Assembly: GCA_945861875.1 (NCBI GenBank)
Contig: CAMAWC010000003.1
Location: forward strand, 1-64,000
Direction: 5' to 3'
Length of the DNA: 64,000 nt
Source of the DNA: Bordetella parapertussis
GTDB taxonomy: Bacteria > Pseudomonadota > Gammaproteobacteria > Burkholderiales > SG8-39
Below the pieces are notes generated by a model. It was not told the origin of the DNA, searched no databases, and saw only the letters and a program-made list of their open reading frames with translations. Shown here one piece after another: positions 21,185 through 36,607 of the stretch; within the stretch, counting starts at the first letter, position 1, and the number at the start of each line of letters is the position of its first letter. Made by a program: the position numbers and the translations under genes.

Positions 21185-22600
21185 TCAGGCTGCGAGGGGC
21201 GGCAGGCGCTTATGCCAGTCGGTGACACGCTGGTAGGCGTCACCGGCGCGCAGCAGCAGGGCTTCGGTAAAAGGCTTGCCGACGAGCTGGAAGCTCACCG
21301 GTAATGCATCGACAAAGCCACAGGGCACGGCCAGCGCCGGCAGGCCGAGGTAGTTGATGCCGCGCGTGCAGTGGGTTATGGCGCCGATCTTGGCCGCGAT
21401 GGCAGCCGGGTCGCCGGCGGTGGTTTCTGCTATCGAGGGCACAGGTATGGATAGCGTCGGCAGGTGCAGCAGGTCGGCGCCTTGCATTGCGCTGGCGACA
21501 TACTCGGCGGCGATTTTGGCGCGCAGCGACAAGGCCTCGGTGTAGCGCGTGGCCGGGTAGTAAAGTCCGGGCTCGATGCGGCTCCTGACCTGGTCGGCAT
21601 AATCGTCCGGGCGTGTCGCCAGCCAGTTGCGGTGGATGCTCGCCGCCTCGACCGTCATCACCACGATCATCAGCGCGTTGATGAGGGCCATGTCCGGCAC
21701 CCTGGTGGTGACGGTTTTGGCGCCCAGGTCGCGCAGTGCGGTGAGCGAGTCATCCAGCGCTTTTTTTACCCCGGGCGTGACGTGCTCATAGTAGTAATTG
21801 CCGGGCACGGCGATGGTCAGGTTTTTCAGGTGGCCGTTGAGCTGGGAGGCATAGTCGGGCACCGGCATGTGCGAGGCGGTGGGATCGGCGATGTCCGCCC
21901 CGGCGATGACCTGCATGATACGGGCGCAGTCGCGCGCCGTTTGCGCCAGTGACCCGATGCAGTCGAGTGACCAGGACAGCGGCATGGCATTGGCGCGGCT
22001 GACGCGCGACCAGGTCGGCTTGAGCCCGGTGAGTCCGCACATCGCCGCCGGGTGGCGGATTGAGCCGCCGGTATCCGAACCCAGTGAAGCGCTGATGAGC
22101 CGCGCGGCGACGGCGGCGCCCGATCCGCTGGAGGACCCGCCGGTGACGTGGGCGGTGTTCCACGGGTTGCGCGCGTGGCCGTAGGGCTCGTTGTAGCCGG
22201 TGGGCGAGAGCGCGAACTCGGCCATGTGCAGGGTGCCCAGGTCGAGCGCACCGGCGGCATCAAGGCGATTGAGTACCGTCGCGGTGGCCTGCGGCACGAA
22301 GCCCTGGCGAATTTTTGAACCGCCGGCGCAGGGGCGGCCCCTTCGGTAGAACAAATCCTTGTGCGCCAGCGGCACGCCGTGCAGCAGGCCGAGCGGCTTG
22401 CCGGCTTTACGCGCGGCGTCGGCCTTGTCGGCGGCGGTGAGGGCTTGTTCTTCCTCGATCAGGACCACGGCATTGAGTTTTGGTCCGATGGCCTTCAGGC
22501 GCGCGAGGCTGGCTTCGGTGGCGGCGCGCGAACTGATCTCGCCCCTGGCGATGGCCTCGGCCAGTTCGCTCAGCGACAACAGGTATGGCGCGGCGCTCAT
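21185..22600 (-). CDS. Amidase signature family protein (AtzF/GatA-like)
   Basis: GVPLAHKDLFYRRG, TGGSSSGSGAAVAARLISASLGSDTGGSIRHPAAMCGLTGLKPT. Confidence 0.95.
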   Translation of the reverse strand: MSAAPYLLSLSELAEAIARGEISSRAATEASLARLKAIGPKLNAVVLIEEEQALTAADKADAARKAGKPLGLLHGVPLAHKDLFYRRGRPCAGGSKIRQGFVPQATATVLNRLDAAGALDLGTLHMAEFALSPTGYNEPYGHARNPWNTAHVTGGSSSGSGAAVAARLISASLGSDTGGSIRHPAAMCGLTGLKPTWSRVSRANAMPLSWSLDCIGSLAQTARDCARIMQVIAGADIADPTASHMPVPDYASQLNGHLKNLTIAVPGNYYYEHVTPGVKKALDDSLTALRDLGAKTVTTRVPDMALINALMIVVMTVEAASIHRNWLATRPDDYADQVRSRIEPGLYYPATRYTEALSLRAKIAAEYVASAMQGADLLHLPTLSIPVPSIAETTAGDPAAIAAKIGAITHCTRGINYLGLPALAVPCGFVDALPVSFQLVGKPFTEALLLRAGDAYQRVTDWHKRLPPLAA

Positions 22601-22802: not shown

Positions 22803-23714
22803 TCAGCTTCCTGGAATGACGCCCGGCGGCAGCGCCAGGCAGTGGTTGGCAATGTCGCCTGGTCTGGTCCACCACACGCGGCCGGCGAGCGGATGCTTCA
22901 CGCAGTGTTGCAACGCGCGGCGCAAGGCCCGGATGCGAAAGGGCTGGCCGAACACATAGGGATGGACGGACACGTTCATGACCAGCGGATGGCGCGCGCT
23001 TTGTTCGACGATTTCATCGAATTGCGCAACGACCATGTCGTAGAACACTTCGGCGCTCCATTTGCGATGGATGATGGCCTGTGCGTCGTCGGTTTCTATC
23101 GGGTAGGGCACCACCAGGATCGGACCGGCGCGCGTGCGCATCCACACCGGCTGGTCGTCCATGGGCCAGTCCATCAGGTAGGTATAACCCAGTTCCTTGA
23201 GCAGGTCGGGCGTATGCGCGGTTTCGTAGGCGCCGGCGCCCATCCATCCCCTGGGCGGACTGCCTTCGTGCCGGGTAATGGTCTCGGTGACTTCGCGCAG
23301 CAGGTGTTCTTCGTCGGGCTGCCACAGGCCGCGCAGGTTCTCGGCATTGGTCCGGCCATGCGCTATGAGTTCGTCGCCGCGCCTGCGTATGGCATCGGTG
23401 ATCTGCGGAGCGTAGTCGTAAATAAGGCTGTTGGTAGCGTGTCCGGCGGGCAGTTCCAGCTCGTCAAGGAGGTCAAACAACCGCCAGATGCCGATGCGGT
23501 TGCCGTAGTCGCGCCAGGAATAATTGCGATGCGTCTGCGGCTCGCCGGTCTTGGCCGGGTCATGGCCCATGCCGGCACCGAAGGCAAACCATTCGATGTT
23601 GGTGGTGACGGTGAACGCAAGGCGTTTGCCGTCCGGCCAGGAATAGTCTTGGCGCTCGGTCAGCGGAAGGAAATCGTAGCGATCGTGCCGGGGTAGGAGG
23701 GGTTTGTCGCTCAT
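22803..23714 (-). CDS. Polysaccharide deacetylase family protein (PuuE-like), paralog 1
   Basis: RLAFTVTTNIEWFAFGAG, NYSWRDYGNRIGIWRLFDLLDELELPA, GRTNAENL, GYTYLMDWPMDDQP; start MSDKPLL. Confidence 0.9.
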   Translation of the reverse strand: MSDKPLLPRHDRYDFLPLTERQDYSWPDGKRLAFTVTTNIEWFAFGAGMGHDPAKTGEPQTHRNYSWRDYGNRIGIWRLFDLLDELELPAGHATNSLIYDYAPQITDAIRRRGDELIAHGRTNAENLRGLWQPDEEHLLREVTETITRHEGSPPRGWMGAGAYETAHTPDLLKELGYTYLMDWPMDDQPVWMRTRAGPILVVPYPIETDDAQAIIHRKWSAEVFYDMVVAQFDEIVEQSARHPLVMNVSVHPYVFGQPFRIRALRRALQHCVKHPLAGRVWWTRPGDIANHCLALPPGVIPGS

Positions 23715-24994
23715 TTGCCCGGAGCGCAACCCCAAAGATCCAGCAGCACGCTCGCCCCCGGCACAAACATCGTGTCGGCAACCCCGATTGCGCTAAAGGG
23801 CAGGCCGGCTTCGCGCAGGTCCGCGTCCCAGGCCATGTAAGCGCCGTGAAAGCCGGCGAGGTCGGTATGAAAGTGCAGCGCGCGCACGATTTGCGACAAA
23901 TCGCTGCCGGCGGCGGCAAAGATGGTATTGGCCTTGGTGAGGATGTCTGTCATCTGGGCGCGACTGCTGTGGTGGAAATACGGCGCGCCGGGCTGCACCT
24001 GCGCGGATGGCGCGAGGCCATTCTTGTCTATGGCCATCAGTCCGGCGACGAACAACAGGCCGTCGAAGGTGCACGCGGGCAGCATGCCTTCAGCGATGAG
24101 TGCCACATCGCAGGTCACATCCTTCACGCGCGCGCTTGCCGATGCGTGCGCCGCGATGAGATTCACTTCGATGGTCGCATCGATGGTGCCGAAGGCCGGA
24201 TGTGCGACCGGGACGATGGTGGTGGGCGGGATGCGCTTGCCAAAGCACTGCGCCCAGCTTAGCAAAAAGGCCGGCAGGTCTTCCGGGTGGCTCAGGTAGA
24301 CCTGCGCCTTGAGCACCAAGTCCGGATGGCTGCCCGCGGCCTCGAGCGCGGGCAACAGGCGTTTCCTGAACAGGTATTCGGTCTCGAGTTTGATGCGTGT
24401 GCCGTTCCACTGCTGGCCGGCGGGCGGCTGCGCTTCGGCGGCGATGTTGCCCGCGACGTCGCGCGCCAGTTGCCCGGCGACGAACACCATGTCACCGACG
24501 CGTATGCAGGGCGCATAGCCCGAGCTCTGCGGCGCATTGAGGTCGGCCTTGATGCGTTCGACGGTGTAGCCGCTGGCTGCGGTGGCGGCCATGACTTGCA
24601 CATCCATGGCGGCGTCGCAATTGAGCAGGCCGCCGACAATAATGGATGTGCTGGGCGCGACCTGGCCGGCGAGTGCCTGCTTGCGCACGACATGGTAAGG
24701 GTCAACCGAACGCGGGTCGGGGTAATACTGGTCCAGGCGCGCGACGCGTGACATTGCGCTGCCGGCCGTGTTGAGGTGCGCGGCCATGGCCTCGAATATG
24801 TGTTCCGCCTCGCGCTGCGCCTTGGGGGGCGCGTCAAGCGGACGGCCGGACTTGAGCACGGCCGGATCCATCAGGCCGTTGGCGAGAGTGGCGCGCAGGC
24901 CGCTGCCGAACACCCAGTTGCCGGCGCGCACAAAAGGCGCATGGACGATGTCGCCGTTGCCGTAACGGGTTTTTCCGAAGCGCTCTATGCTCAT
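23711..24994 (-). CDS. Triple-domain RidA (YjgF/YER057c/UK114) protein
   Basis: Three successive RidA-like units; MVFVAGQLARD, LFVAGLMAIDKNG, YYPDPRSVDPYHVVRKQ, YLSHPEDLPAFLLSW. Confidence 0.8.
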   Translation of the reverse strand: MSIERFGKTRYGNGDIVHAPFVRAGNWVFGSGLRATLANGLMDPAVLKSGRPLDAPPKAQREAEHIFEAMAAHLNTAGSAMSRVARLDQYYPDPRSVDPYHVVRKQALAGQVAPSTSIIVGGLLNCDAAMDVQVMAATAASGYTVERIKADLNAPQSSGYAPCIRVGDMVFVAGQLARDVAGNIAAEAQPPAGQQWNGTRIKLETEYLFRKRLLPALEAAGSHPDLVLKAQVYLSHPEDLPAFLLSWAQCFGKRIPPTTIVPVAHPAFGTIDATIEVNLIAAHASASARVKDVTCDVALIAEGMLPACTFDGLLFVAGLMAIDKNGLAPSAQVQPGAPYFHHSSRAQMTDILTKANTIFAAAGSDLSQIVRALHFHTDLAGFHGAYMAWDADLREAGLPFSAIGVADTMFVPGASVLLDLWGCAPGK

Positions 24995-25008: not shown

Positions 25009-25968
25009 TTAATCTATCTTGGCACCGGTTTCCTTGATCAGGCGCGCCCACAAATCGCGGTCGCCGCGGAAAAAGGCGCCGAACTCCGCGGGCGTGGAGC
25101 CGATTTGCTCGATGGCGGCGTTGCTCATGTAGGACCTGACCGCGGGGGCCTTTAGCGCCGCGTTCAATTCGCGGTTGAGTTTGTCGATGATGGGGGCTGG
25201 TGTGCCCTTTGGCGCCAGGATGCCCATCCAGATGTAGGCTTCGTAGCCCTTGAAACCGGATTCAGCGAGGGTGGGCACCTCGGGCAGCAGCGGCGAGCGC
25301 GTCGCGCCGCTGACCGCCAGTGCGCGCAGTTTGCCTTCCTTGATATGGCTGATCATCGCCGCGAGGCCGGGCATCGCCGTCTGGATTTGCCCGCCCAGCA
25401 GGTCGGTGGTGACGCCGCCGCTGCCCTTGTAAGGCACGTGCGTCATCTTCAGGTCACCGATGGAATTCATCAGCGCCATGAACAGGTGTTGCGCGCTGCC
25501 GTTGCCCGAGGACCCGTAATTGACCTTGCCCGGATTGGCTTTGACGTAGGCGACGAACTCGCGGATGGTCTTGGCCGGCACCGACGGATGCACCAGCAGC
25601 ACCGCCTGCTCGCGTCCGAGCAGCGAAATCGGCAGGAAGTCGTCGACCGGATTGTGCGTCAGGTTGTTGTACAGCGAGACGCTGATGGCGTTGGGATTGG
25701 ATGCGAGCAGCAGTGTGTAGCCGTCGGCTGGGGCCTTGACCACTTCGGCACTGCCTATCATCGCGCCCTGTCCGGGCTTGTTCTCGACCACCATCTGGTG
25801 GCCGACCTGTTTGGAGAACTCCTGGGCGATGACGCGCATCGGTCCGTCGGAGGAGCCGCCTGCGCCGTAGGGAACAACGAGGCGTATGGGCCGGTTCGGA
25901 TAGTCCTGGGCCTGTACGGTGGCGCTGAACAAGGCGAGGGTGAGCAATGTGAAGCCGAGGCGTTTCAT
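25009..25968 (-). CDS. TTT substrate-binding protein (Bug/TctC family)
   Basis: QDYPNRPIRLVVPYGAGGSSD, THVPYKGSGGV. Confidence 0.93.
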   Translation of the reverse strand: MKRLGFTLLTLALFSATVQAQDYPNRPIRLVVPYGAGGSSDGPMRVIAQEFSKQVGHQMVVENKPGQGAMIGSAEVVKAPADGYTLLLASNPNAISVSLYNNLTHNPVDDFLPISLLGREQAVLLVHPSVPAKTIREFVAYVKANPGKVNYGSSGNGSAQHLFMALMNSIGDLKMTHVPYKGSGGVTTDLLGGQIQTAMPGLAAMISHIKEGKLRALAVSGATRSPLLPEVPTLAESGFKGYEAYIWMGILAPKGTPAPIIDKLNRELNAALKAPAVRSYMSNAAIEQIGSTPAEFGAFFRGDRDLWARLIKETGAKID

Positions 25969-25981
25969 GGTGGTTCTCCTG

Positions 25982-26893
25982 TCAGCTTCCGGGAATGATG
26001 CCCGGGGGCAAGGTAAGGCAGTGATCGGCGATCTCGTGCGGTTTGCACCACCAGACGCGGCCGGCCTTGGCGTGCTCGACGCAATGCTGGAAGGCGCGGC
26101 GGATCATGCGCAGGCGAAAGGGCTGGCCGAACACATACGGATGGATGGACACGTTCAGCACCAGCGGATGGCGTTCCGATTGCTCGATCATTTCATCGAA
26201 TTGCTCGGTAATCATGTCGCAAAAGCTCTCGGCGTCACCCTTGCGGTGGATAACGTGCTGCGAATCATTGAGCTCGATCGGGTAGGGCACCGACAGGATG
26301 GGGCCGGCGCGCGTGCGCAACCACACCGGCTGGTCGTCCATGGGCCAGTCCATGAGGTAGGTGTAGCCCAGTTCCTTCAACAGGTCGGGGGTGTTGCCGG
26401 TCTCGTAGGCGCCAGAGCCCATCCAGCCCTTGGGCGCCCTGCCTTCATGTTTGGTGATGGTATCGGTGACTTCGCCCAGGATGCGCTCCTCGTCCGGCTG
26501 CCACAGTCCCTTGAGGTTCTCGGCGTTGCTGCGGCCATGGGCGACGATTTCGTCACCGCGCTTGCGAATGAAGTCGGTGATTTGCGGCGCGTACTGGTAG
26601 ATGAGGCTGTTGGTGTTGTGGCCGGCGGGCAGTTTCAGCTCGTCAAGGAGCTCAAACAGCCGCCAGATGCCGATGCGGTTGCCGTAATCACGCCAGGAAT
26701 AGTTGCGATGCGTCTGCGGCTCACCGGTCTTGGCCGGGTCGTGCCCAAGGCCCGCGCCAAAGGCGAACCATTCGATATTGGTGGTGATGGTGAAGGCGAG
26801 GCGTTTTCCGCCCGGCCAGGAGTAGTCCTTGCGCTCCGGTAACGGGATGTAGTCGTAGCGCGTGTGCTGGGGGAGGAGGGGTTTGGTGCTCAT
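25982..26893 (-). CDS. Polysaccharide deacetylase family protein (PuuE-like), paralog 2
   Basis: Near-identical motifs to 22803..23714; start MSTKPLL. Confidence 0.9.
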   Translation of the reverse strand: MSTKPLLPQHTRYDYIPLPERKDYSWPGGKRLAFTITTNIEWFAFGAGLGHDPAKTGEPQTHRNYSWRDYGNRIGIWRLFELLDELKLPAGHNTNSLIYQYAPQITDFIRKRGDEIVAHGRSNAENLKGLWQPDEERILGEVTDTITKHEGRAPKGWMGSGAYETGNTPDLLKELGYTYLMDWPMDDQPVWLRTRAGPILSVPYPIELNDSQHVIHRKGDAESFCDMITEQFDEMIEQSERHPLVLNVSIHPYVFGQPFRLRMIRRAFQHCVEHAKAGRVWWCKPHEIADHCLTLPPGIIPGS

Positions 26894-26944
26894 GGAATAG
26901 GTCTTCACTAAACGATAGTCGAATCTGGGCAAACCAAGAAACTA

Positions 26945-27049: not shown

Positions 27050-28036
27050 TTATTCCACCTTTGCGCCAGACGCCTTGACCACCGGCGCGAGCATGGAGAT
27101 TTCCTTGCTCAGCATGGCTGCAAACGCCTCGGGTGTGGTGGCGATTGGGTCGGCGCCGAGGTTGTCGAAGACCCGCTTGATTTCCTCGCTGGCGATGACC
27201 TTGGCGAATTCGGCGTTAAGTTTGCGCACGATCGCCGGGTCCATGCCTTTGGGGCCGAGGATGCCGTTATAGAGCACCACCTCAAAATTAGCGACGCCCG
27301 CCTCGCCCATGGTCGGCACATCGGGTGCGGCGGCGACGCGCTTGGGCGTGGTTACGGCGAGGGCGCGCAGCTTGCCGGCCTTGGCGTTGGACACCGCCGG
27401 CGGCATGGTGGAGAACACGAAGGCCACTTCATTGCCGAGGATGGCCTGGGTCGCCGGGTTGCTTCCTTTGTAAGGCACGTGCACAACGTCAATGCCCTGG
27501 CCGGCTTTGAACATCTCGCCCGCCAGGTGCAGGATGGTACCGTTGCCGGATGAACCATAGGAGAACTTGCCCGGTTGCGATTTCATCAGCGCGGCGAGCT
27601 CCTTGACGGTTTTGGCCGATGAGGACGGATGCACCACCAGCATCAGCGGCGTCGAGGCGAACAGCGCAATGGGGGTGAAATCCTTGATCGAGTCGTAGGG
27701 CAGCTTGGGGTAGAGGCTGGCATTGATGGCGTGGGTGGTGATGTCCTGCAGCCAGATGGTGTAGCCGTCGGGGGCGGCCTTGGAAACAATATCCCCGGCG
27801 ATGGTGGTGCCGGCGCCGGGCTTGTTCTCGACAAACACGCTTTGCCCGATCGTAGTGGACATCTTGGCGGCAATCGCACGCGCCAGCACGTCGGAAATGC
27901 CGCCGGCGGCAAAGCCGACAACCATTTTGATCGGCTGTTTCGGGTAGTCGGCCTGGGCCCGGGCGTGGCCGATGCAGGTGGCAAGTATTGCGCCTGACAG
28001 CAGGACCGAGGAAAGGACGCGTCGTTTGCGATTCAT
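27050..28036 (-). CDS. TTT substrate-binding protein (Bug/TctC family)
   Basis: ADYPKQPIKMVVGFAAGGISD, VVHVPYKGSNPA. Confidence 0.93.
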   Translation of the reverse strand: MNRKRRVLSSVLLSGAILATCIGHARAQADYPKQPIKMVVGFAAGGISDVLARAIAAKMSTTIGQSVFVENKPGAGTTIAGDIVSKAAPDGYTIWLQDITTHAINASLYPKLPYDSIKDFTPIALFASTPLMLVVHPSSSAKTVKELAALMKSQPGKFSYGSSGNGTILHLAGEMFKAGQGIDVVHVPYKGSNPATQAILGNEVAFVFSTMPPAVSNAKAGKLRALAVTTPKRVAAAPDVPTMGEAGVANFEVVLYNGILGPKGMDPAIVRKLNAEFAKVIASEEIKRVFDNLGADPIATTPEAFAAMLSKEISMLAPVVKASGAKVE

Positions 28037-28113
28037 GGCGGGCTCCGAAAATGTAAGAAGTGGTAAAGAAGTACACCGGCGCGCCGTGCGCACCGCATCG
28101 AACCGGGTCGGTG

Positions 28114-28821
28114 CTATTTCACACCCAGAAAGCGCTGCATGGTGGCGCGGTCGTTGCGCAGTACGTCGGCGCCGCCGTGCCAGACAATGCCGCCTGTCTC
28201 AAGTATGTAGACCTCGTCGGCGACCGCCAGGGCGCTGTAGAGGTTTTGTTCCACCAGCAGGATGGCAAGGCCGGTCTGCTTGAGTTGCGTGATGATGCCC
28301 TCGAGGTGCTGCACCATCACCGGGGCGAGGCCTTCCGAGGGCTCGTCCATCAGCAGCAGCGTCGGGTTGAGCATCAGCGCGCGTCCGACGGCAAGCATCT
28401 GGCGCTCGCCGCCCGAGAGCTGGTTGCCGCGATGGTGGCGCCGTTCGCCAAGGCGAGGGAACATGGCAAAAATGCGCTCCACCGTCCATTCGTGGCTGTC
28501 GGCGCCGCGCGATTCGACCATGGTCAGGTGCTCGGTGACGCTGAGCGAGGCGAACAGCCGGCGGCCCTGCGGCACCAGGCCGATGCGCTCGCGCGCGATG
28601 GCATGCGGCGTGAGACCGCGCAACTCCTTGCCAAGGTACTTGACGCTGCCCTGGGTGACCTGCGGCGAGGTGAAATTCATGATCGAGCGGATCAGCGTGG
28701 TCTTGCCCATGCCGTTGCGGCCGAGCAGGGCGACGACGCGGCTGGCCGGCACGTCGAGCGACACGCCGTGCAGGATGTGCGCGTCGCCGTACTTGCTGTG
28801 CAGGTCGCGTATTTCAAGCAT
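28114..28821 (-). CDS. livF: Branched-chain amino acid/amide ABC transporter ATP-binding protein LivF
   Basis: LLGRNGMGKTTLIRSIM, LSGGERQMLAVGRALMLNPTLLLMDEPSEGLAP. Confidence 0.93.
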   Translation of the reverse strand: MLEIRDLHSKYGDAHILHGVSLDVPASRVVALLGRNGMGKTTLIRSIMNFTSPQVTQGSVKYLGKELRGLTPHAIARERIGLVPQGRRLFASLSVTEHLTMVESRGADSHEWTVERIFAMFPRLGERRHHRGNQLSGGERQMLAVGRALMLNPTLLLMDEPSEGLAPVMVQHLEGIITQLKQTGLAILLVEQNLYSALAVADEVYILETGGIVWHGGADVLRNDRATMQRFLGVK

Positions 28822-29569
28822 GGTGGGGCTTTCCGAGATAGACCTCTTGCACCTTCTCGTTGCCGCGGATGGCGTCCGGCGTGTCCTCGACCAGAACCTG
28901 GCCGTGCTGCAGGCAGGTGACGTAATCCACGAGGCCGAGGGCAAGGTCCATGTCGTGCTCTATCAGCACCAGTGTCAACTCTCGCGGCAGGGCGCGGATA
29001 ATCTCGGCCATGCGCACGCGTTCGGCCGCCGAAAGGCCGGCGGCCGGTTCGTCCAGCAGCAGCAGGCTGGGCTTGCCGGCGAGGGCAAGGGCGAGCTCAA
29101 GCTGGCGTTGCTCGCCGTAAGAGAGGTCGCGTATCGGCACGCCGCGGCGCGCGCTCATGCCGCTCTCGGACAGGGCCTCCTCGACCGCGGTGTGCTCGGC
29201 CGTGTTGAGCTTGCCCGAGCCAAACAGCGAAAACTTCCGCGGCGAGAGGCCGCGCACGGCAAGGCGCAGGTTGTCCTCGACTGACAGTGACGCAAACAGG
29301 TTGGTGATCTGGTAGGTGCGGCCTATGCCCAGGTGCGCCTTGGCGTGCGGTTTGAGCCGGGTGACGTCGTTGCCGCGAAAGCTCACGCTGCCGCCCGAGG
29401 GACGGATGTCGCCGGCGATGGCGTTGAACAGTGTCGTCTTGCCGGCACCGTTGGGGCCAATGATGGCGCGGCGTTCCCCCGCCTTGACCGACAGCGACAC
29501 GCCGTCGACGGCGCGCAGCGCACCGAAGGTGACGCTGACGTTGTCGAGTTTGAGCAGGGGATCGGTCAT
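28814..29569 (-). CDS. livG: Branched-chain amino acid/amide ABC transporter ATP-binding protein LivG
   Basis: IGPNGAGKTTLFNAIAGDIRPSGG, RTYQITNLFASLSVEDNL, LSYGEQRQLELALALAGKPSLLLLDEPAAGLS. Confidence 0.93.
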   Translation of the reverse strand: MTDPLLKLDNVSVTFGALRAVDGVSLSVKAGERRAIIGPNGAGKTTLFNAIAGDIRPSGGSVSFRGNDVTRLKPHAKAHLGIGRTYQITNLFASLSVEDNLRLAVRGLSPRKFSLFGSGKLNTAEHTAVEEALSESGMSARRGVPIRDLSYGEQRQLELALALAGKPSLLLLDEPAAGLSAAERVRMAEIIRALPRELTLVLIEHDMDLALGLVDYVTCLQHGQVLVEDTPDAIRGNEKVQEVYLGKPHHA

Positions 29570-29600
29570 CTTGATTGGTTGATGGGCGGTGCGTAAATGC

Positions 29601-29695
29601 CGTCATACCCGCGCAAGCGGGAATCCATGGGGTTTGCATGCCGAACCCATGGATTCCGGGTTGCGCCCAAGGTGACGGGCGCCCCCGGAATGACG
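29601..29695. repeat. Dispersed REP-like inverted repeat
   Basis: cgtcatacccgcgcaagcgggaatccatggggttt ... ggaatgacgg. Confidence 0.75.
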
Positions 29696-29705
29696 GCGTT
29701 GTGGA

Positions 29706-30974
29706 TCAGGTTTTCTTGATGCCCTGGAAGGTGCGCGAATACGGCGGTTGCGCCATATAGGTTTCCGGGTTGTATTTCCAGAACTGGCTGACGTTGGGAT
29801 ACGAGGCGATGGGCACGTTCCAGAGTTTGCCGTCCGGGCGCTTGACGGTCTTCCTGATGTACATGTCGTAGACCGGGTTGCCGTAAGGATCGAGTTCGAC
29901 GCTCCTCCCGAGGGGCGAGCCGGTGAGCTTGACCTGGCGCACTTCGTTGAGGAAGTTGACCTTGTCCTCGACCTTGCCGTTGACGCGCTTGATCGCCTCG
30001 GCGAGCCACATCGCGCCCGAGTAATGCGAAAAGCCGTAGATTGACGGCAGCTTGTTGTAGGCCTTGTTGTAGTCGGCGAGGAATTTATTGTTGGCGGCCT
30101 CGTCGCGGCCCTCGCAAAAGTGTGCGCCGGAAATCAGGCCCTCGGCTTCGGGGCCCATGGTGCGGATGACCGACTGGTCGGTGGCGTTCTGGCAATAGAG
30201 AACGGGAATCTTGTCTTTCAGGCCGAAGTTGTTCCATTGCTGGATAAAGCGCGAGGCGTCGGCGCCGGTCTCCATCGAAAACACCACATCGGGCTTGAGG
30301 TTCTGGATTTGCGCCAGGTAGGGACTGAAGTCGGCGGTGTTAAGCGGGTTCCAGAACTGCTGCATGATCGTTCCGCCGCCCTCGGTGAAGGTCTGGCAAA
30401 AGCCGCCGCACTGTTCGTGGCCGAAGGCGTAGTCCTGCGAAATGGTCACGGCTTTTTTGTAACCCTGCTTGAGGCCGTAATCAGCGATCGGCCGCGGCGT
30501 CTGGCTGGAACTGTAGCCGGCGATGCGCACGACGTTGTTAAGGCGCTTGCGCTGCGTCAGGTCGTCGGCGGCGATCACCGGGATGAAGTAGGGCACGCCG
30601 TTGCCCTTGACGTATTCGGCCACGGCAAGGCCGGTGTTGGCGAGGATGTTGCCCACCAGCCAGTGCACGTTGCGCTGCTCGACGAGGCGGCGCGCCTTTT
30701 GCAGCGAGGTATCCGGGTTGGCGCCGTCGTCCTCGACGATGACTTCGATTTCGCGCCCGGCGACTTTCTTGCCGACCTGGTCCCAGTAAAGGTTGAAACC
30801 CTCGACCACTTCACGGCCGCCGGCGGCGACCACGCCGGTGAGCGGGGCCATCAGGCCGATGCGGATCGGACCGGTCTGCGCCGAGGCGGTGTGCACCCAC
30901 GGGCCGACCGAGGTCGCGGCGGTGGTGGCGGCGGCGGCGCCGGTGGCTTTGAGGAATTTGCGGCGGTTCATCAT
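29706..30974 (-). CDS. ABC transporter substrate-binding protein (LivK-like, Tat signal)
   Basis: NRRKFLKATGAAAA; IRIGLMAPLTGVVAAGGREVVEGFNLYWDQVG; between livM and livG. Confidence 0.93.
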   Translation of the reverse strand: MMNRRKFLKATGAAAATTAATSVGPWVHTASAQTGPIRIGLMAPLTGVVAAGGREVVEGFNLYWDQVGKKVAGREIEVIVEDDGANPDTSLQKARRLVEQRNVHWLVGNILANTGLAVAEYVKGNGVPYFIPVIAADDLTQRKRLNNVVRIAGYSSSQTPRPIADYGLKQGYKKAVTISQDYAFGHEQCGGFCQTFTEGGGTIMQQFWNPLNTADFSPYLAQIQNLKPDVVFSMETGADASRFIQQWNNFGLKDKIPVLYCQNATDQSVIRTMGPEAEGLISGAHFCEGRDEAANNKFLADYNKAYNKLPSIYGFSHYSGAMWLAEAIKRVNGKVEDKVNFLNEVRQVKLTGSPLGRSVELDPYGNPVYDMYIRKTVKRPDGKLWNVPIASYPNVSQFWKYNPETYMAQPPYSRTFQGIKKT

Positions 30975-31003
30975 GGTGACCTCCAGTTAACAAAAAAGGA
31001 AAT

Positions 31004-31936
31004 TCAGGAACTACGTTTGGAACGGCGCCGCGCGAGTATTTGTCGCGCCTTGCCGACAAGGCCTTCGGGGGCAAAAATCATGGTGAAAATGAACATGAAG
31101 CCGAGCACCATGGACCAGCGCTCGGTGTAAAGGCTGACCACGTTTTCCAGGCTGATGATAACAATGGAACCTATCAGCGAGCCGAACAGCGTGCCGACCC
31201 CTCCGACAATGGCCATCAGCAGGCCGGACACCGACTGCTTGAGTTCCACCGTGGATGGGCTGACAAAGCTGTTGTAAAAGGCGTAGAGGATGCCGGCGAT
31301 TCCGGCGAAAAAACCGGATACGACAAAGCCGATGAACACGTGCAGCGGCACGTTGTAGCCCAGCGCCCGCATGCGCGATTCGCTCTCGCGAATGCCCTTG
31401 AGGGTGAGGCCGAAGGGTGAATTGACGAAACGCCACATCGCCAGGGCCATCAGCGAGGTGATGGCGAGGGTGAGGTAATACAGGTTGACGTGGTTGGCCA
31501 GCCATTCGGGCTTGATGTTGCCGCGAATGCCGTTCTCGCCGCCGGTGACCGACGTCCAGCGCAGCGACACGCCCCAGACGATCATGCCCAGGGCAAGGGT
31601 GAGCAGCAGGAAATACACGCCGGAGGTGCGGATGGCGAGGGCGCCGAACACCACGGCGGTGGCGGTGGCGGCAAGAATGCCCAGCACGATGCCGGCGGCG
31701 AGGGAGCCGTTGGCGGCGGTGACGTAATAGAGCACCACGTAGGTGGCGACGCCGAAAATCGCGCCGTGGCCCAGCGGCGTGCGCCCGGTATAGCCGGCGA
31801 GGATGTCGATGGACATGGCGAGCGCGGCGTAGATCAGGATTTGCGTCGCGATGCTGGTGTGGTAGCCGGTGATGGCCAGCGGCAGCAGCGCCAGGGCGGC
31901 CAGCACGATGGCGGTCCAGGCGTAGCGCTTGTTCAT
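31004..31936 (-). CDS. livM: Branched-chain amino acid/amide ABC permease LivM
   Basis: SIDILAGYTGRTPLGHGAIFGVATYVV, GYNVPLHVFIGFVVSGFFAGIAGILYAF; start MNKRYAW. Confidence 0.92.
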   Translation of the reverse strand: MNKRYAWTAIVLAALALLPLAITGYHTSIATQILIYAALAMSIDILAGYTGRTPLGHGAIFGVATYVVLYYVTAANGSLAAGIVLGILAATATAVVFGALAIRTSGVYFLLLTLALGMIVWGVSLRWTSVTGGENGIRGNIKPEWLANHVNLYYLTLAITSLMALAMWRFVNSPFGLTLKGIRESESRMRALGYNVPLHVFIGFVVSGFFAGIAGILYAFYNSFVSPSTVELKQSVSGLLMAIVGGVGTLFGSLIGSIVIISLENVVSLYTERWSMVLGFMFIFTMIFAPEGLVGKARQILARRRSKRSS

Positions 31937-31946
31937 ACCCGGCTGC

Positions 31947-32804
31947 TCATGTGGCCCGTCCGAACAGGCCGAGCGGGCGGAAGGCGAGCAGCACGGCCAT
32001 CGGCCCGAAAATGACAAAGTAGGCGAGTTCCGGGAACCAGACCTGGCCGAAGGTGTTGAGCATGGCGACAAAGATCGCGCCCACTGCGGCGCCGGCAAGG
32101 CTGCCGCGGCCGCCGATGATCACCACCGCAAGGCTGAACACCAGGATTTCGGCGTCGGCGGTGGGGTAGAGCGACAGGAAGGCGCCGCCCAGCGAACCGC
32201 CGAGGCCGGCGAGGGCGGTGCCCAGCATCAGCGTGTAGATGAACACGCGGCGGATGTTGACGCCCATGGCTTCGACCATTTCGGCATCGTCGACGCCGGC
32301 GCGAATCAGCGCGCCCAGGCGCGTCTTGTTGAGCAGCAGCCACAGGCCGATGAAAATCGCCACGCCCACGCCCAGCACGAACAGGCGGAACGCCGGGTAG
32401 GTGATGCCGGCGAACTGCACCGCCCCCTGCAGCCACTGCGGCACCGGCACGGTGAAGGTGTCGCCGCCCCAGATCACCAGCATCAGGTCGTTGAGCACCA
32501 GCGCGACCCCGACCGTGAGCAACACCTGGCGCAGTTCGTTGTTTTTGACAAAGCGCAGCAGCAGCGTGTCAATGAGAAAACCGGCAAAGGCCACCGCCAG
32601 TGCGGCGCAGCCTATGCCAATGGCAAAACTGCCGGATTTCATCGCCACGGTAAAGGCGATGTAGCCGCCCAGCAGGTAGAGCGCCCCGTGCGCCAGGTTG
32701 ACGATGCGCATCAGCCCGAAAATCAGCGTAAAGCCGCTGCCGACCACGAACAGCAGCGCCGCGAAAGTCAGGCTGTTGAGCAGGTTGAAGGCGAGCATCG
32801 ACAC
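31947..32804 (-). CDS. livH: Branched-chain amino acid/amide ABC permease LivH
   Basis: LTLIFGLMRIVNLAHGALYLLGGYIAF, KTRLGALIRAGVDDAEMVEAMGVN. Confidence 0.93.
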   Translation of the reverse strand: MSMLAFNLLNSLTFAALLFVVGSGFTLIFGLMRIVNLAHGALYLLGGYIAFTVAMKSGSFAIGIGCAALAVAFAGFLIDTLLLRFVKNNELRQVLLTVGVALVLNDLMLVIWGGDTFTVPVPQWLQGAVQFAGITYPAFRLFVLGVGVAIFIGLWLLLNKTRLGALIRAGVDDAEMVEAMGVNIRRVFIYTLMLGTALAGLGGSLGGAFLSLYPTADAEILVFSLAVVIIGGRGSLAGAAVGAIFVAMLNTFGQVWFPELAYFVIFGPMAVLLAFRPLGLFGRAT

Positions 32805-32817
32805 GGGGCAGTCGTCC

Positions 32818-33702
32818 TTACTTGGCTTGCGTGCGGGCCTTCTGGTACCAGTCGAGGATTTCCTCGCCGTTCCAGTGGATCACGCCGGGGAAGCGGCTCA
32901 TGTAATCGTACACGGCTTCAAGGTACTTGATGCGGAAGGGCTGGCCGCTGACATAGGGGTGGATGGCGATGGCCATGATGCGCGGCCGCTCGGCCCCTTC
33001 CATGTACAGGCGGTCGAAGGTGTCGGTGCATTTTGTCTGCCAGTAGGCCGCCTCGTGGTGCTGCACCAGCATCGCCGGGATGTCGTTGGTCTCGACCGAA
33101 TAGGGCAGGGTGATGAGCGGGCCGTTGGTGGTCTTGATCTCCGTCGGCTCCTCGTCATAGACCCAGTCGCCGATGTATTTCACACCGGCGGCGGTGAGGT
33201 AATCGGGTGTGTCCAGCGTTTGCGTCAGGCCGGGTCCGAGCCAGCCGACCGGGCGTTTGCCGGTGAATTTTTCGATGGTGTCCATGGAGCGGCCGATCAT
33301 GCCCGGCTGGTCTTCTTCCTTGTGTATCGGCCCCTGCTCCCAGCTGTGGCCCATGAATTCCCAGCCCGAGTCCTTGCAAGCCTGCGCGACGCGCGGGTAA
33401 TCGACACAGACGCGGGCGTTGATCGACAGGGTCGGCCGCAGGCCGAGCTTTTCGTACAAGGCATGAAAACGCCAGAAACCGACGCGCATGCCGTACTCGT
33501 GCCAGGACCAGTTGGGCACGTCCGGCAGCAGCATCGCGCCGGTGGGCGGCGGGATGACCTGGCGCGCCATGGCCTTGGCGATGTCCCACACTTCAAGGTT
33601 GACGATGGTCCAGACGATGATGCGGCCGTCGCCCGGCAGCTTGAGCTTGGGGCGGTCGACAATGGCGCTGAAGGGAACGCGTTCGCGCGGAAGCATGGCC
33701 AT
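32818..33702 (-). CDS. Polysaccharide deacetylase family protein, paralog 3 (divergent)
   Basis: NWSWHEYGMRVGFWRFHALYEKLGLRPTLSINARVC, EFMGHSWEQGPIH, GWLGPGLTQTLDTPDYL, AIHPYVSGQPFRIKYLE. Confidence 0.88.
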   Translation of the reverse strand: MAMLPRERVPFSAIVDRPKLKLPGDGRIIVWTIVNLEVWDIAKAMARQVIPPPTGAMLLPDVPNWSWHEYGMRVGFWRFHALYEKLGLRPTLSINARVCVDYPRVAQACKDSGWEFMGHSWEQGPIHKEEDQPGMIGRSMDTIEKFTGKRPVGWLGPGLTQTLDTPDYLTAAGVKYIGDWVYDEEPTEIKTTNGPLITLPYSVETNDIPAMLVQHHEAAYWQTKCTDTFDRLYMEGAERPRIMAIAIHPYVSGQPFRIKYLEAVYDYMSRFPGVIHWNGEEILDWYQKARTQAK

Positions 33703-33724: not shown

Positions 33725-34363
33725 TTAGGGGGTAAGAGGTGCTGCCATGATTTCGTCGGTACTCATGACAAAGCCAAAAGCGGTGCGCATGCACAGCAGT
33801 GCGGCGGCATGCAGTTCGGGCGCGTCCATGGTGTCGACACAATCTTCGGCAATTATGACCGCATAATCCTTCGAGCAGGCGGCCAGGACGGTGGAGAGCA
33901 CGCAGCTGTTGGTGTTGACACCGCTGACGATCAGGGTGTTCACGCCGTGCGAGCGCAGCACGAAATCGAGGTCGGTGCCGACAAAGCAGTCGTAACGCTT
34001 CTTGGTGTCGACCACCCAGTCGCGTTTGGCGTCGTGCAGCTCGGGGATGATGGTGCAGCCGGGCATGCCGGCGATGTTGTGCTTGAGCACGTTCTTGCGC
34101 GGGTTGTCCGGGTTCTCGGCGCGGGTGCGCCAGAACGGATTGACGCGGATCTCCTCGGCGTCACGGTAAGTCGTTACGAGGTGCACGATGGGAATCGCCT
34201 TGGTGCGGCACCAGTCAAACAGCCTTTTGTTGGCGGCGATGACGCGCCTCGCCTGCGCCTCGGTCGGCACCGGCATGGTCGCAACCGTGAGGTCGAGATG
34301 GCCGCGGTGCAGGTCGATGGCGACCACCGCGGCTTTGATTTTGTCTACGCCGAGATTCAGCAT
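33725..34363 (-). CDS. Isochorismatase-type cysteine hydrolase
   Basis: AAVVAIDLHRGHLD, HGVNTLIVSGVNTNSCVLSTVLAA, AEDCVDT. Confidence 0.9.
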   Translation of the reverse strand: MLNLGVDKIKAAVVAIDLHRGHLDLTVATMPVPTEAQARRVIAANKRLFDWCRTKAIPIVHLVTTYRDAEEIRVNPFWRTRAENPDNPRKNVLKHNIAGMPGCTIIPELHDAKRDWVVDTKKRYDCFVGTDLDFVLRSHGVNTLIVSGVNTNSCVLSTVLAACSKDYAVIIAEDCVDTMDAPELHAAALLCMRTAFGFVMSTDEIMAAPLTP

Positions 34364-34542: not shown

Positions 34543-35781
34543 TCAGGCGGCGCTGAACTGCAATTGTCGCTGGTCGATGCCGAACTTGTCGGCGAGCCAG
34601 TCGTTCATCAATTCCTGGCCCAGCGTCGGGTTGTCATGCTGGCAGTGTTCGGCGCCGGTTTCCTCGGCCGAGGTGAGGCGCAGCGTGACGTCCTTGCCGC
34701 GTGCCTTGGCGTAATCATAGACCTTGGTGGCCTGCGACACGGTCAGCACGTCGTGGCCGCCGTGCAGCACCAGCAGCGGGCACTTGATATGGTCGAGGTG
34801 GCCTTCAAGCGTAAAAGCCTTTGCCTTGACCATGGACTCTTTCATCGACTTGCAGCCAAACACCCAGCGAATGTGCTCCGCCAGGCCGTGACTGTCGTCG
34901 GCATTGCCCCACAAGTCGGTGATGGCCCAGACCGCGCCATGGGCGATGACCGCGGCAAGGCGCGGTTCGTAGCAGCCGGCGCGCGCGGCGTAATAACCGC
35001 CAAGGCTGGACCCGCAGCAGGCGATGCGCTTGGCATCGACGTCATCGCGCTGTTCCAGCCAGTCTATGCATTTGCCCACCGGCACTTCGGTGTCGGCGCG
35101 GTTGGGGATCTTGTGCCGGCGCAGCGTGCCGCCCTGGCCGGGCAGGTCGACCATCAGCACCGAGATACCGCGTTGCAGCGCGCCGTGCGCCTGCATGAAC
35201 CACATCTCGTCCTTGATTGAGTCAAGGCCGCCAAAGCAGATCAGCACCGGGTGCTTGTTGCTGCGATTGTTCTCTCCATGCGGGGTGCGCACAAAATAGC
35301 CGCAAATCGTGACGCCGTTTTCGTAGGGGATCTCGACCTCCTCGCCCTTGGGCGTGAGGTGGCTGATGAATTTTTTCGAGCAGGCTTCCATTTTTTCGAA
35401 GGTCGGCAGGCGGCGCGGATCTTCGGGCGTGAGATGGAACTCGGCCTGGCGGTAGTAGTCGGCGGCGCGCAGGAAGCAGTTCATGGCACTGCGCACGTGG
35501 CCGAGTGTTTCCTCGGCAAGGCCGCGCTGCCAATTGTTGTCGGCGACGACCATCCATTCGGTGTGCCAGGACTCCTTGTCACCGGGGATCATGCGGCTGG
35601 CGGCGAGGAAACACTCGCTTACCGCACCGCCGCCTTCCTGGGTTTCGCCGAGGGCGCGGCGGAACTGGTAGGTCAGCCAGGGGTGTTCGGGCCAGTGGTG
35701 CCAGCCGTAGGGTTCGTAGTGGGGCTGCCGGTTGGCGGTGATTTTTTCAATCAGGTTGTCTTCGGTGGCGTTGGAGGCCAT
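34543..35781 (-). CDS. Alpha/beta hydrolase (2,6-dihydroxypseudooxynicotine hydrolase-like)
   Basis: PVLICFGGLDSIKDEMWF, ACCGSSLGGYYAARAG nucleophile elbow, HGGHDVLT. Confidence 0.85.
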   Translation of the reverse strand: MASNATEDNLIEKITANRQPHYEPYGWHHWPEHPWLTYQFRRALGETQEGGGAVSECFLAASRMIPGDKESWHTEWMVVADNNWQRGLAEETLGHVRSAMNCFLRAADYYRQAEFHLTPEDPRRLPTFEKMEACSKKFISHLTPKGEEVEIPYENGVTICGYFVRTPHGENNRSNKHPVLICFGGLDSIKDEMWFMQAHGALQRGISVLMVDLPGQGGTLRRHKIPNRADTEVPVGKCIDWLEQRDDVDAKRIACCGSSLGGYYAARAGCYEPRLAAVIAHGAVWAITDLWGNADDSHGLAEHIRWVFGCKSMKESMVKAKAFTLEGHLDHIKCPLLVLHGGHDVLTVSQATKVYDYAKARGKDVTLRLTSAEETGAEHCQHDNPTLGQELMNDWLADKFGIDQRQLQFSAA

Positions 35782-35962: not shown

Positions 35963-36607
35963 TCAGAACGTCGGTGGTGTGCTGATCCAGATGATGCGCG
36001 CGTGTTTTTTCGCCGGGTTGCGGTAGCTATGGGGGATTTCCGAGCGAAAGCTGAATGAATCGCCGGCGGCGAGCAGATAGGTGCGGTCGCCCACCGTGAG
36101 TTCCAGTTCGCCGTCGATGACAAAGCCCACTTCCTCGCCCTCGTGCGAGAGCATGCCTTCGCTGCCGCCGCCCGGCGCGAGAATGTGCAGGTTGCCCTCG
36201 AGCAGGTGGCTGCCTTCGGCCGGAATCAGCCGCTCCAGCTGCGAGCCGGCCTTGTCTATGGAAAACGCCGGGCGTTTGCCGCGGCGGGCGACGATGCCGC
36301 GGTCGGCGTGCTCGTCGGCAAACAGCGCCGCCATGTTGACGTTGAGCGCCGCGACAATCTTGTGCAGTACCGTAACAGAAGGCAGGGCGACGCCGTTCTC
36401 GATCTTCGAAATAAGGCTCTCGGAACAGCCGACGCGCCCCGACAGGTCGCGCAGCTTGAGCCCCTTGATCATGCGCAGGGCCTTGATGTTGGCGCCGAGG
36501 CGGCTGTTCTGCTCGGTGGCGCGGCTGTTTGCCGCGGCGCTGCGCGCGGTTTTGCGCGCTGCCGGGCGTTTTGCCGGTTTGCGGGTGGTGCGGGGCGGAC
36601 TGGTCAT
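35963..36607 (-). CDS. XRE-family regulator with C-terminal cupin (PuuR-like)
   Basis: LGANIKALRMIKGLKLRDLSGRVGCSESLISKIENG HTH; cupin HEGEEVGFVIDGELELTVG...FRSEIPHSYRN. Confidence 0.93.
   Translation of the reverse strand: MTSPPRTTRKPAKRPAARKTARSAAANSRATEQNSRLGANIKALRMIKGLKLRDLSGRVGCSESLISKIENGVALPSVTVLHKIVAALNVNMAALFADEHADRGIVARRGKRPAFSIDKAGSQLERLIPAEGSHLLEGNLHILAPGGGSEGMLSHEGEEVGFVIDGELELTVGDRTYLLAAGDSFSFRSEIPHSYRNPAKKHARIIWISTPPTF

Follow-up and report, generated by a model that had tools for sequence, protein, structure and literature searches.

The window, the whole stretch of 64,000 nucleotides that was analysed, encodes a protein (P0001) in which three Rid domains follow one another in a single chain and none of them has an arginine at the position of Arg105 of Escherichia coli RidA. 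We tentatively read P0001, giving this interpretation nearly even chances, as a Rid pseudo-trimer in which one site has been rebuilt around unit 1, and thus as a putative enzyme acting on an imported nitrogen compound. Arg-less single Rids are already known, and covalently linked trimers were proposed when the 3x-RidA proteins were named (Niehaus et al. 2015; PMC4433059; example EF_0115). Together with the proposal that AtzD comes from three concatenated YjgF units (Peat et al. 2013; PMC3758960), this means that neither the fusion nor the idea of new chemistry following fusion is new. What is new here, as far as the open-access literature shows, is the asymmetric, Arg-less triple class; neither this class nor its sister with a single arginine nor triple Rids with differentiated units were found in that literature.

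Three divergent Rid units without the canonical arginine

The gene for P0001 is intact, with a Shine-Dalgarno-like AAGGAA just 5' of its ATG at 24994, and lies exactly where the initial annotation had placed it, on the minus strand, which that annotation had left unstated (Table 1). The product of about 427 aa had been described as three RidA-like domains, and the domain search bears this out: PF01042 (RidA/L-PSP) matches P0001 three times (whole-protein E-value 8.2e-24 with Pfam), and a profile search of its own genome locates these matches one after another in the ORF, at 24584-24931, 24149-24535 and 23783-24073. P0001 thus has the three tandem Rid domains per chain that characterise the 3x-RidAs. 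Its units, however, are only 17-22% identical to one another, whereas those of P0002, a canonical 3x-RidA, share 72-79% identity. Unit 1 is the most divergent, scoring alone 23.3 bits in the genome search, just below the Pfam cut-off of 27.3. Pairwise dN/dS values of 0.05 to 0.31 in four compared pairs indicate purifying selection on these proteins and, together with intact relatives across many genomes, show that P0001 is not a chance ORF.

Table 1. Triple-Rid gene, its units and the neighbouring genes of the window
Feature	Coordinates	Strand	Remarks
Amidase	21185..22600	minus	nearest NCBIfam models AtzE-type (below cut-off)
PuuE-like CE4 amidohydrolase	22803..23714	minus	ATG overlaps triple-Rid stop (ATGA)
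Triple-Rid gene, Arg-less (P0001)	23711..24994	minus	intact ORF, 427 aa, stop TGA 23713-23711
Unit 3, aa 289-427 + stop	23711..24130	minus	Phe400 at Arg105 position, Leu417 at Glu120 position
Unit 2, aa 143-288	24131..24568	minus	Thr258 at Arg105 position; Rid Glu is E276
Unit 1, aa 1-142	24569..24994	minus	Ser115 at Arg105 position; invariant E62, R86, D88, R104, S115, T116, S117
TctC-type solute receptor	25009..25968	minus	directly upstream; 14 bases from its stop to triple-Rid ATG
Second PuuE-like CE4 amidohydrolase	25982..26932	minus	78% identical to copy at 22803
TctC-type solute receptor	27050..28093	minus	
Branched-chain-amino-acid-type (Liv) ABC importer	28114..32804	minus	two ATPases, receptor, two permeases
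Third PuuE-like CE4 protein	32818..33702	minus	distant copy
Isochorismatase-fold hydrolase	33725..34363	minus	nearest NCBIfam: biuret hydrolase, RutB (below cut-offs)
FrsA-like alpha/beta hydrolase	34543..35781	minus	
HTH-cupin regulator, PuuR-like	35963..36607	minus	

The units were aligned one by one with E. coli RidA, and the columns of Arg105 and Glu120 were scored over 60 Arg-less relatives. The strings previously quoted as the equivalent ends of the units (APSTSIIVGG, PPTTIVPVAH and PFSAIGVAD) are present near aa 113, 256 and 399, and the Arg105 column is occupied by S115, T258 and F400, in agreement with the earlier claim that no unit has the canonical arginine. The units also differ from each other, so that any sites would be asymmetric, as had been supposed. 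Arginine does not occur at this position in any unit of the 60 relatives: unit 1 invariably has Ser (60/60), unit 2 has Leu, Thr, Val or Ile, and unit 3 has Phe in 51 of the 60 and mostly Leu or Tyr in the rest. Strict retention of the Glu120 equivalent is confined to unit 2 (E276, 60/60); this residue is variable in unit 1 and lost in unit 3, where mainly hydrophobic residues have taken its place. Given that this pattern is common to 60 relatives, the Arg-less state is a fixed property of the family and not an accident of one gene. By contrast, the three canonical 3x-RidAs seen here, P0002 included, have both Arg and Glu in every unit.

In TdcF, Arg105 holds the carboxylate of the ligand (PMC1884159), and this residue has been described as the determinant of Rid deaminase activity (PMC5619798). 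For Rid7 of Salmonella enterica, the one tested member of the Rid4-Rid7 subfamilies, no imine deaminase activity was detected, and neither this protein nor variants with Arg changed to Ala acted on the imines tried (PMC4433059, PMC8113886); no enzymatic activity of an Arg-less Rid is reported in the literature searched. P0001 resembles the Rid4-Rid7 proteins in having no conserved arginine at the Arg105 position, but these are single-domain proteins described as keeping the glutamate (PMC4433059), which the P0001 family retains strictly in one unit of three. Judged by the arginine, the automatic label of RidA-type imine deaminase on such proteins is probably misleading.

Three kinds of triple Rid

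The source genome, a 4.07 Mb draft with 21 PF01042 stretches, encodes two further triple Rids: P0002 (L009:4451-5701), which is canonical and shows PPPRTT and Glu in each of its units, and P0003 (L010:7372-8652), which like P0001 is Arg-less. A sister group of the Arg-less proteins, with members in L023 and L077 and as second genes in L054, L055 and L060, carries its single canonical arginine in unit 2, the same position being Ser in unit 1 and Thr in unit 3. The number of canonical arginines is accordingly three in the canonical 3x-RidAs, one in the sister group and zero in the Arg-less proteins. Four loci (L054, L055, L060 and L086) each carry a same-strand group made up of an Arg-less gene, an ABC importer and a sister gene with one arginine (at 11522-12793 in L086). 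Going by the record titles, L086 is betaproteobacterial and the other three are alphaproteobacterial, which places such groups in both classes.

A single-unit tree of 94 rows places all first units of the Arg-less and sister proteins in one clade, and likewise all second and all third units (support 100/99 each); the two groups thus split after a single triplication. The tree is built on few columns, which makes the deep forks uncertain. On the simplest reading, units 1 and 3 would already have lacked the arginine when the two groups parted, and unit 2 would have lost it along the Arg-less line. The units of the canonical 3x-RidAs cluster by protein, and these proteins may have arisen by a separate triplication or may have been homogenised; both fit the unit tree.

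A putatively rebuilt unit 1 in a predicted pseudo-trimer

Twenty-one positions of unit 1 are conserved at 95% or more, and E62, R86, D88, R104, S115, T116 and S117 are each present in 59/59 proteins of the Arg-less set. Relative to the canonical 3x-RidAs, unit 1 has exchanged Gln for Glu62, Lys for Arg86, Trp for Arg104, Arg for Ser115 and Thr for Ser117. All five of these new residues are common to the Arg-less (59/59) and one-Arg sister (5/5) proteins, and Asp88 is found in 59/59 and 4/5, respectively. In the alignment, Arg104 occupies the position of Tyr91 of E. coli RidA, three residues past Asn88, which in TdcF hydrogen-bonds Arg105 (PMC1884159). The equivalent place holds Trp in unit 2 of both the Arg-less and the sister group and in unit 3 of the Arg-less group. 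The confinement of the Trp-to-Arg exchange to unit 1 in the Arg-less proteins and its nearness to the Asn88 position make it a reasonable hypothesis that unit 1 carries a relocated arginine, R104; the invariant residues of this unit would line a pocket.

An AlphaFold2 model of P0001 built with 46 sequences forms one compact fold (mean pLDDT 93.5, pTM 0.93; with 7 sequences, pLDDT 83.0 and pTM 0.88), and a pTM of 0.93 over three domains indicates that their mutual placement is confident. In Foldseek searches, RidA chains match the model domain by domain, with TM-scores by target of up to 0.89, and the best whole-length PDB matches are chorismatases, the four longest of which cover 385-390 columns with TM-scores by target of 0.58-0.63 and rmsd of 5.0-5.7. 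The suggestion in the initial annotation that the chain folds as an intramolecular pseudo-trimer is thus supported as regards a compact single-chain model with full-length matches to chorismatases; the closed, trimer-like barrel is a prediction from the model confidence and these same matches. A PDB profile search, in which RidA-type chains were listed, found no solved triple-Rid structure by sequence.

Genes around the triple Rids

The genes surrounding the triple-Rid gene form a same-strand run (Table 1) that looks like a set for taking up a nitrogen compound and hydrolysing its amides step by step. All matches to named NCBIfam enzyme models are below the cut-offs, so the exact functions of the neighbours are not readable from these names. 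The two 78%-identical PuuE-like CE4 genes flank the TctC and triple-Rid genes. A linkage to PuuE-like genes as a family-wide feature was rejected: it occurs in only three loci, the window included, and the source genome has 14 PuuE-like genes. TctC genes account for 27 of the 136 near neighbours, but as the source genome contains at least 150 TctC receptor genes, the case for TctC as a specific partner is weak. Some automatic neighbour clusters were discarded as antisense frames of other genes.

Across loci, importers recur and PuuE-like genes do not. Of 57 loci, 14 have an ABC importer permease within 6 kb of the relative, and those checked for a receptor had one of the NMT1 type; TctC genes occur in many loci. 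One betaproteobacterial clade has a single-domain, Arg-keeping PF14588 Rid close by, with the motif HAR(T/S)AVG. Single-domain Rids with the arginine were also seen near Arg-less triple Rids at L032:7893-8366 and L038:12370-12840 and in relatives of these loci, and the PF14588 matches are probably these same proteins. The window resembles the RutC context, in which a Rid shares an operon for a nitrogen compound with two hydrolases, one an amidohydrolase of the isochorismatase fold and the other of the alpha/beta type (PMC8113886). RutC, however, is a single-domain protein that needs its Arg104 (PMC8113886), whereas P0001 is triple and Arg-less, and no RutA-type oxygenase was identified among the scanned neighbours of P0001.

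Possible activity of P0001

Under the interpretation that we tentatively favour, P0001 would be a Rid pseudo-trimer with covalent links, in which the three sites between the domains have diverged, the canonical sites having been abandoned and one site rebuilt around unit 1. It would be a soluble enzyme that helps to break down an imported nitrogen compound. The probable reaction would be the hydrolysis or isomerisation of an enamine/imine-type intermediate without the carboxylate that Arg105 holds in ordinary RidA. Given that Arg105 holds the carboxylate, that Arg-less Rids have shown no deaminase activity in the literature searched and that unit 1 has a new, strictly kept polar set, a carboxylate-free substrate appears most likely. 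Such action at a single site would most likely resemble that proposed for a Rid6 protein (with variable Arg) on an enamine of the nicotine pathway (PMC7688666). The close, operon-like packing of the gene between those for a solute receptor and an amidohydrolase counts in favour of this interpretation; against it, the literature searched reports no enzymatic activity for Arg-less Rids, the gene set of the window is not conserved across the family, and the invariance of the unit-1 residues can also be compatible with folding or ligand binding.

The loss of Arg105 from all three units, with Glu120 strict in one only, could instead mark a pseudoenzyme, catalytically dead, that binds a metabolite or a partner as a sensor, chaperone or scaffold within the operon, and the Arg-keeping PF14588 Rid nearby in one betaproteobacterial clade could there do any deamination. 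Yet a polar set in unit 1 that is invariant across Alpha- and Betaproteobacteria exceeds the needs of a scaffold, and charged residues have been newly gained, not merely lost, so we regard a dead protein as rather unlikely. The new arginine itself raises the question of whether P0001 has remained a normal imine deaminase, its arginine having shifted from the strand (105) to the preceding helix (R104 of unit 1) while still gripping the carboxylate. R104, present in 59/59 proteins, takes the place of the canonical 3x-RidA Trp and lies three residues after position 88, which touches Arg105 in TdcF (PMC1884159). This, too, seems to us unlikely, given that it is Arg105 that has been described as the determinant of Rid deaminase activity (PMC5619798) and that the sister group has a canonical arginine alongside R104.

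Chorismatases are the best of the full-length fold matches, and AtzD and barbiturase (Toblerone fold) resemble P0001 in consisting of three concatenated YjgF-like units with new chemistry after fusion (PMC3758960), so that P0001 might be a chorismatase or an AtzD-type ring-opening amidase missed by sequence profiles. The chorismatases (PDB 4bps, 5a3k and 5ag3), however, are single chains of about 333 residues, some 95 shorter than P0001, and share with it 11-15% identity and no sequence profile match, and the PDB profile search returned RidA-type chains and no chorismatases. AtzD has a single central site to which every repeat contributes a Lys, a Ser and an Arg (PMC3758960), and it is absent from the 50 fold matches listed for the P0001 model. 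PF01042 is matched by 46/46 members of the family and the chorismatase or AtzD families by none, even at an E-value of 1. Membership in either family was rejected as being without profile support, and a missed relationship of this kind is very improbable. The Pfam name, Endoribonuclease L-PSP, and a ribonuclease activity reported for rat L-PSP (as cited in PMC4433059) would point to an endoribonuclease; the operon, however, is metabolic and contains no pointer to RNA, which makes this reading extremely unlikely.

To return to a site rebuilt around unit 1, a more far-reaching version is possible but doubtful in our view: that fusion freed the sites, and that unit 1 (R104, Ser115/Ser117 and perhaps Glu276 of unit 2) became a putative new enzyme, the third separate invention by Rid concatenation. 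If this were true, the enzyme would fall outside the imine deaminases, the chorismatases and the AtzD amidases alike, and the proteins with three, one and zero canonical arginines would preserve the steps by which it arose. In a homotrimer, one active site cannot change without all three, whereas in a covalently fused trimer it can; the Arg-less family, its one-Arg sister and the symmetric 3x-RidAs therefore offer a comparison set for site-by-site divergence. The Arg-less Rids, the function of which has been called mysterious, also gain a concrete, expressible candidate with an operon context.

Distribution of the triple-Rid genes

The taxonomic survey called for in the initial annotation yielded 77 loci from a scan of genome contigs, most of them full-length relatives. 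The majority belong to Alpha- and Betaproteobacteria, and Acidobacteria, Deltaproteobacteria and Actinomycetes contribute a few each. Ancylobacter mangrovi (L054) and Bradyrhizobium sp. dw_411 (L083) are among the carriers that are in culture. The closest relative among these loci (64% identity) is from a Ramlibacter MAG (L031), in which a TctC gene is also directly upstream. The distribution of the gene is patchy. Among 98 genomes from the same family, 10 have a match at 1e-10, a threshold that includes more distant triple Rids; at 1e-60, a class-wide sample of 369 genomes gave 2 with a match, one being the source genome. Viral contigs contained no relative, and plasmids contained no match to P0001 at 1e-20 or to the canonical P0002 at 1e-30.

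Several MAG records labelled Bordetella parapertussis or Klebsiella pneumoniae (L037, L040, L043, L047, L088 and L091) contain these genes; their isolate names mark them as environmental bins, and the species labels look like misassignments. Near Arg-less triple-Rid genes, a more distant, long Rid of about 460 aa was also observed (L040:12098-13483 and L051:6815-8197).
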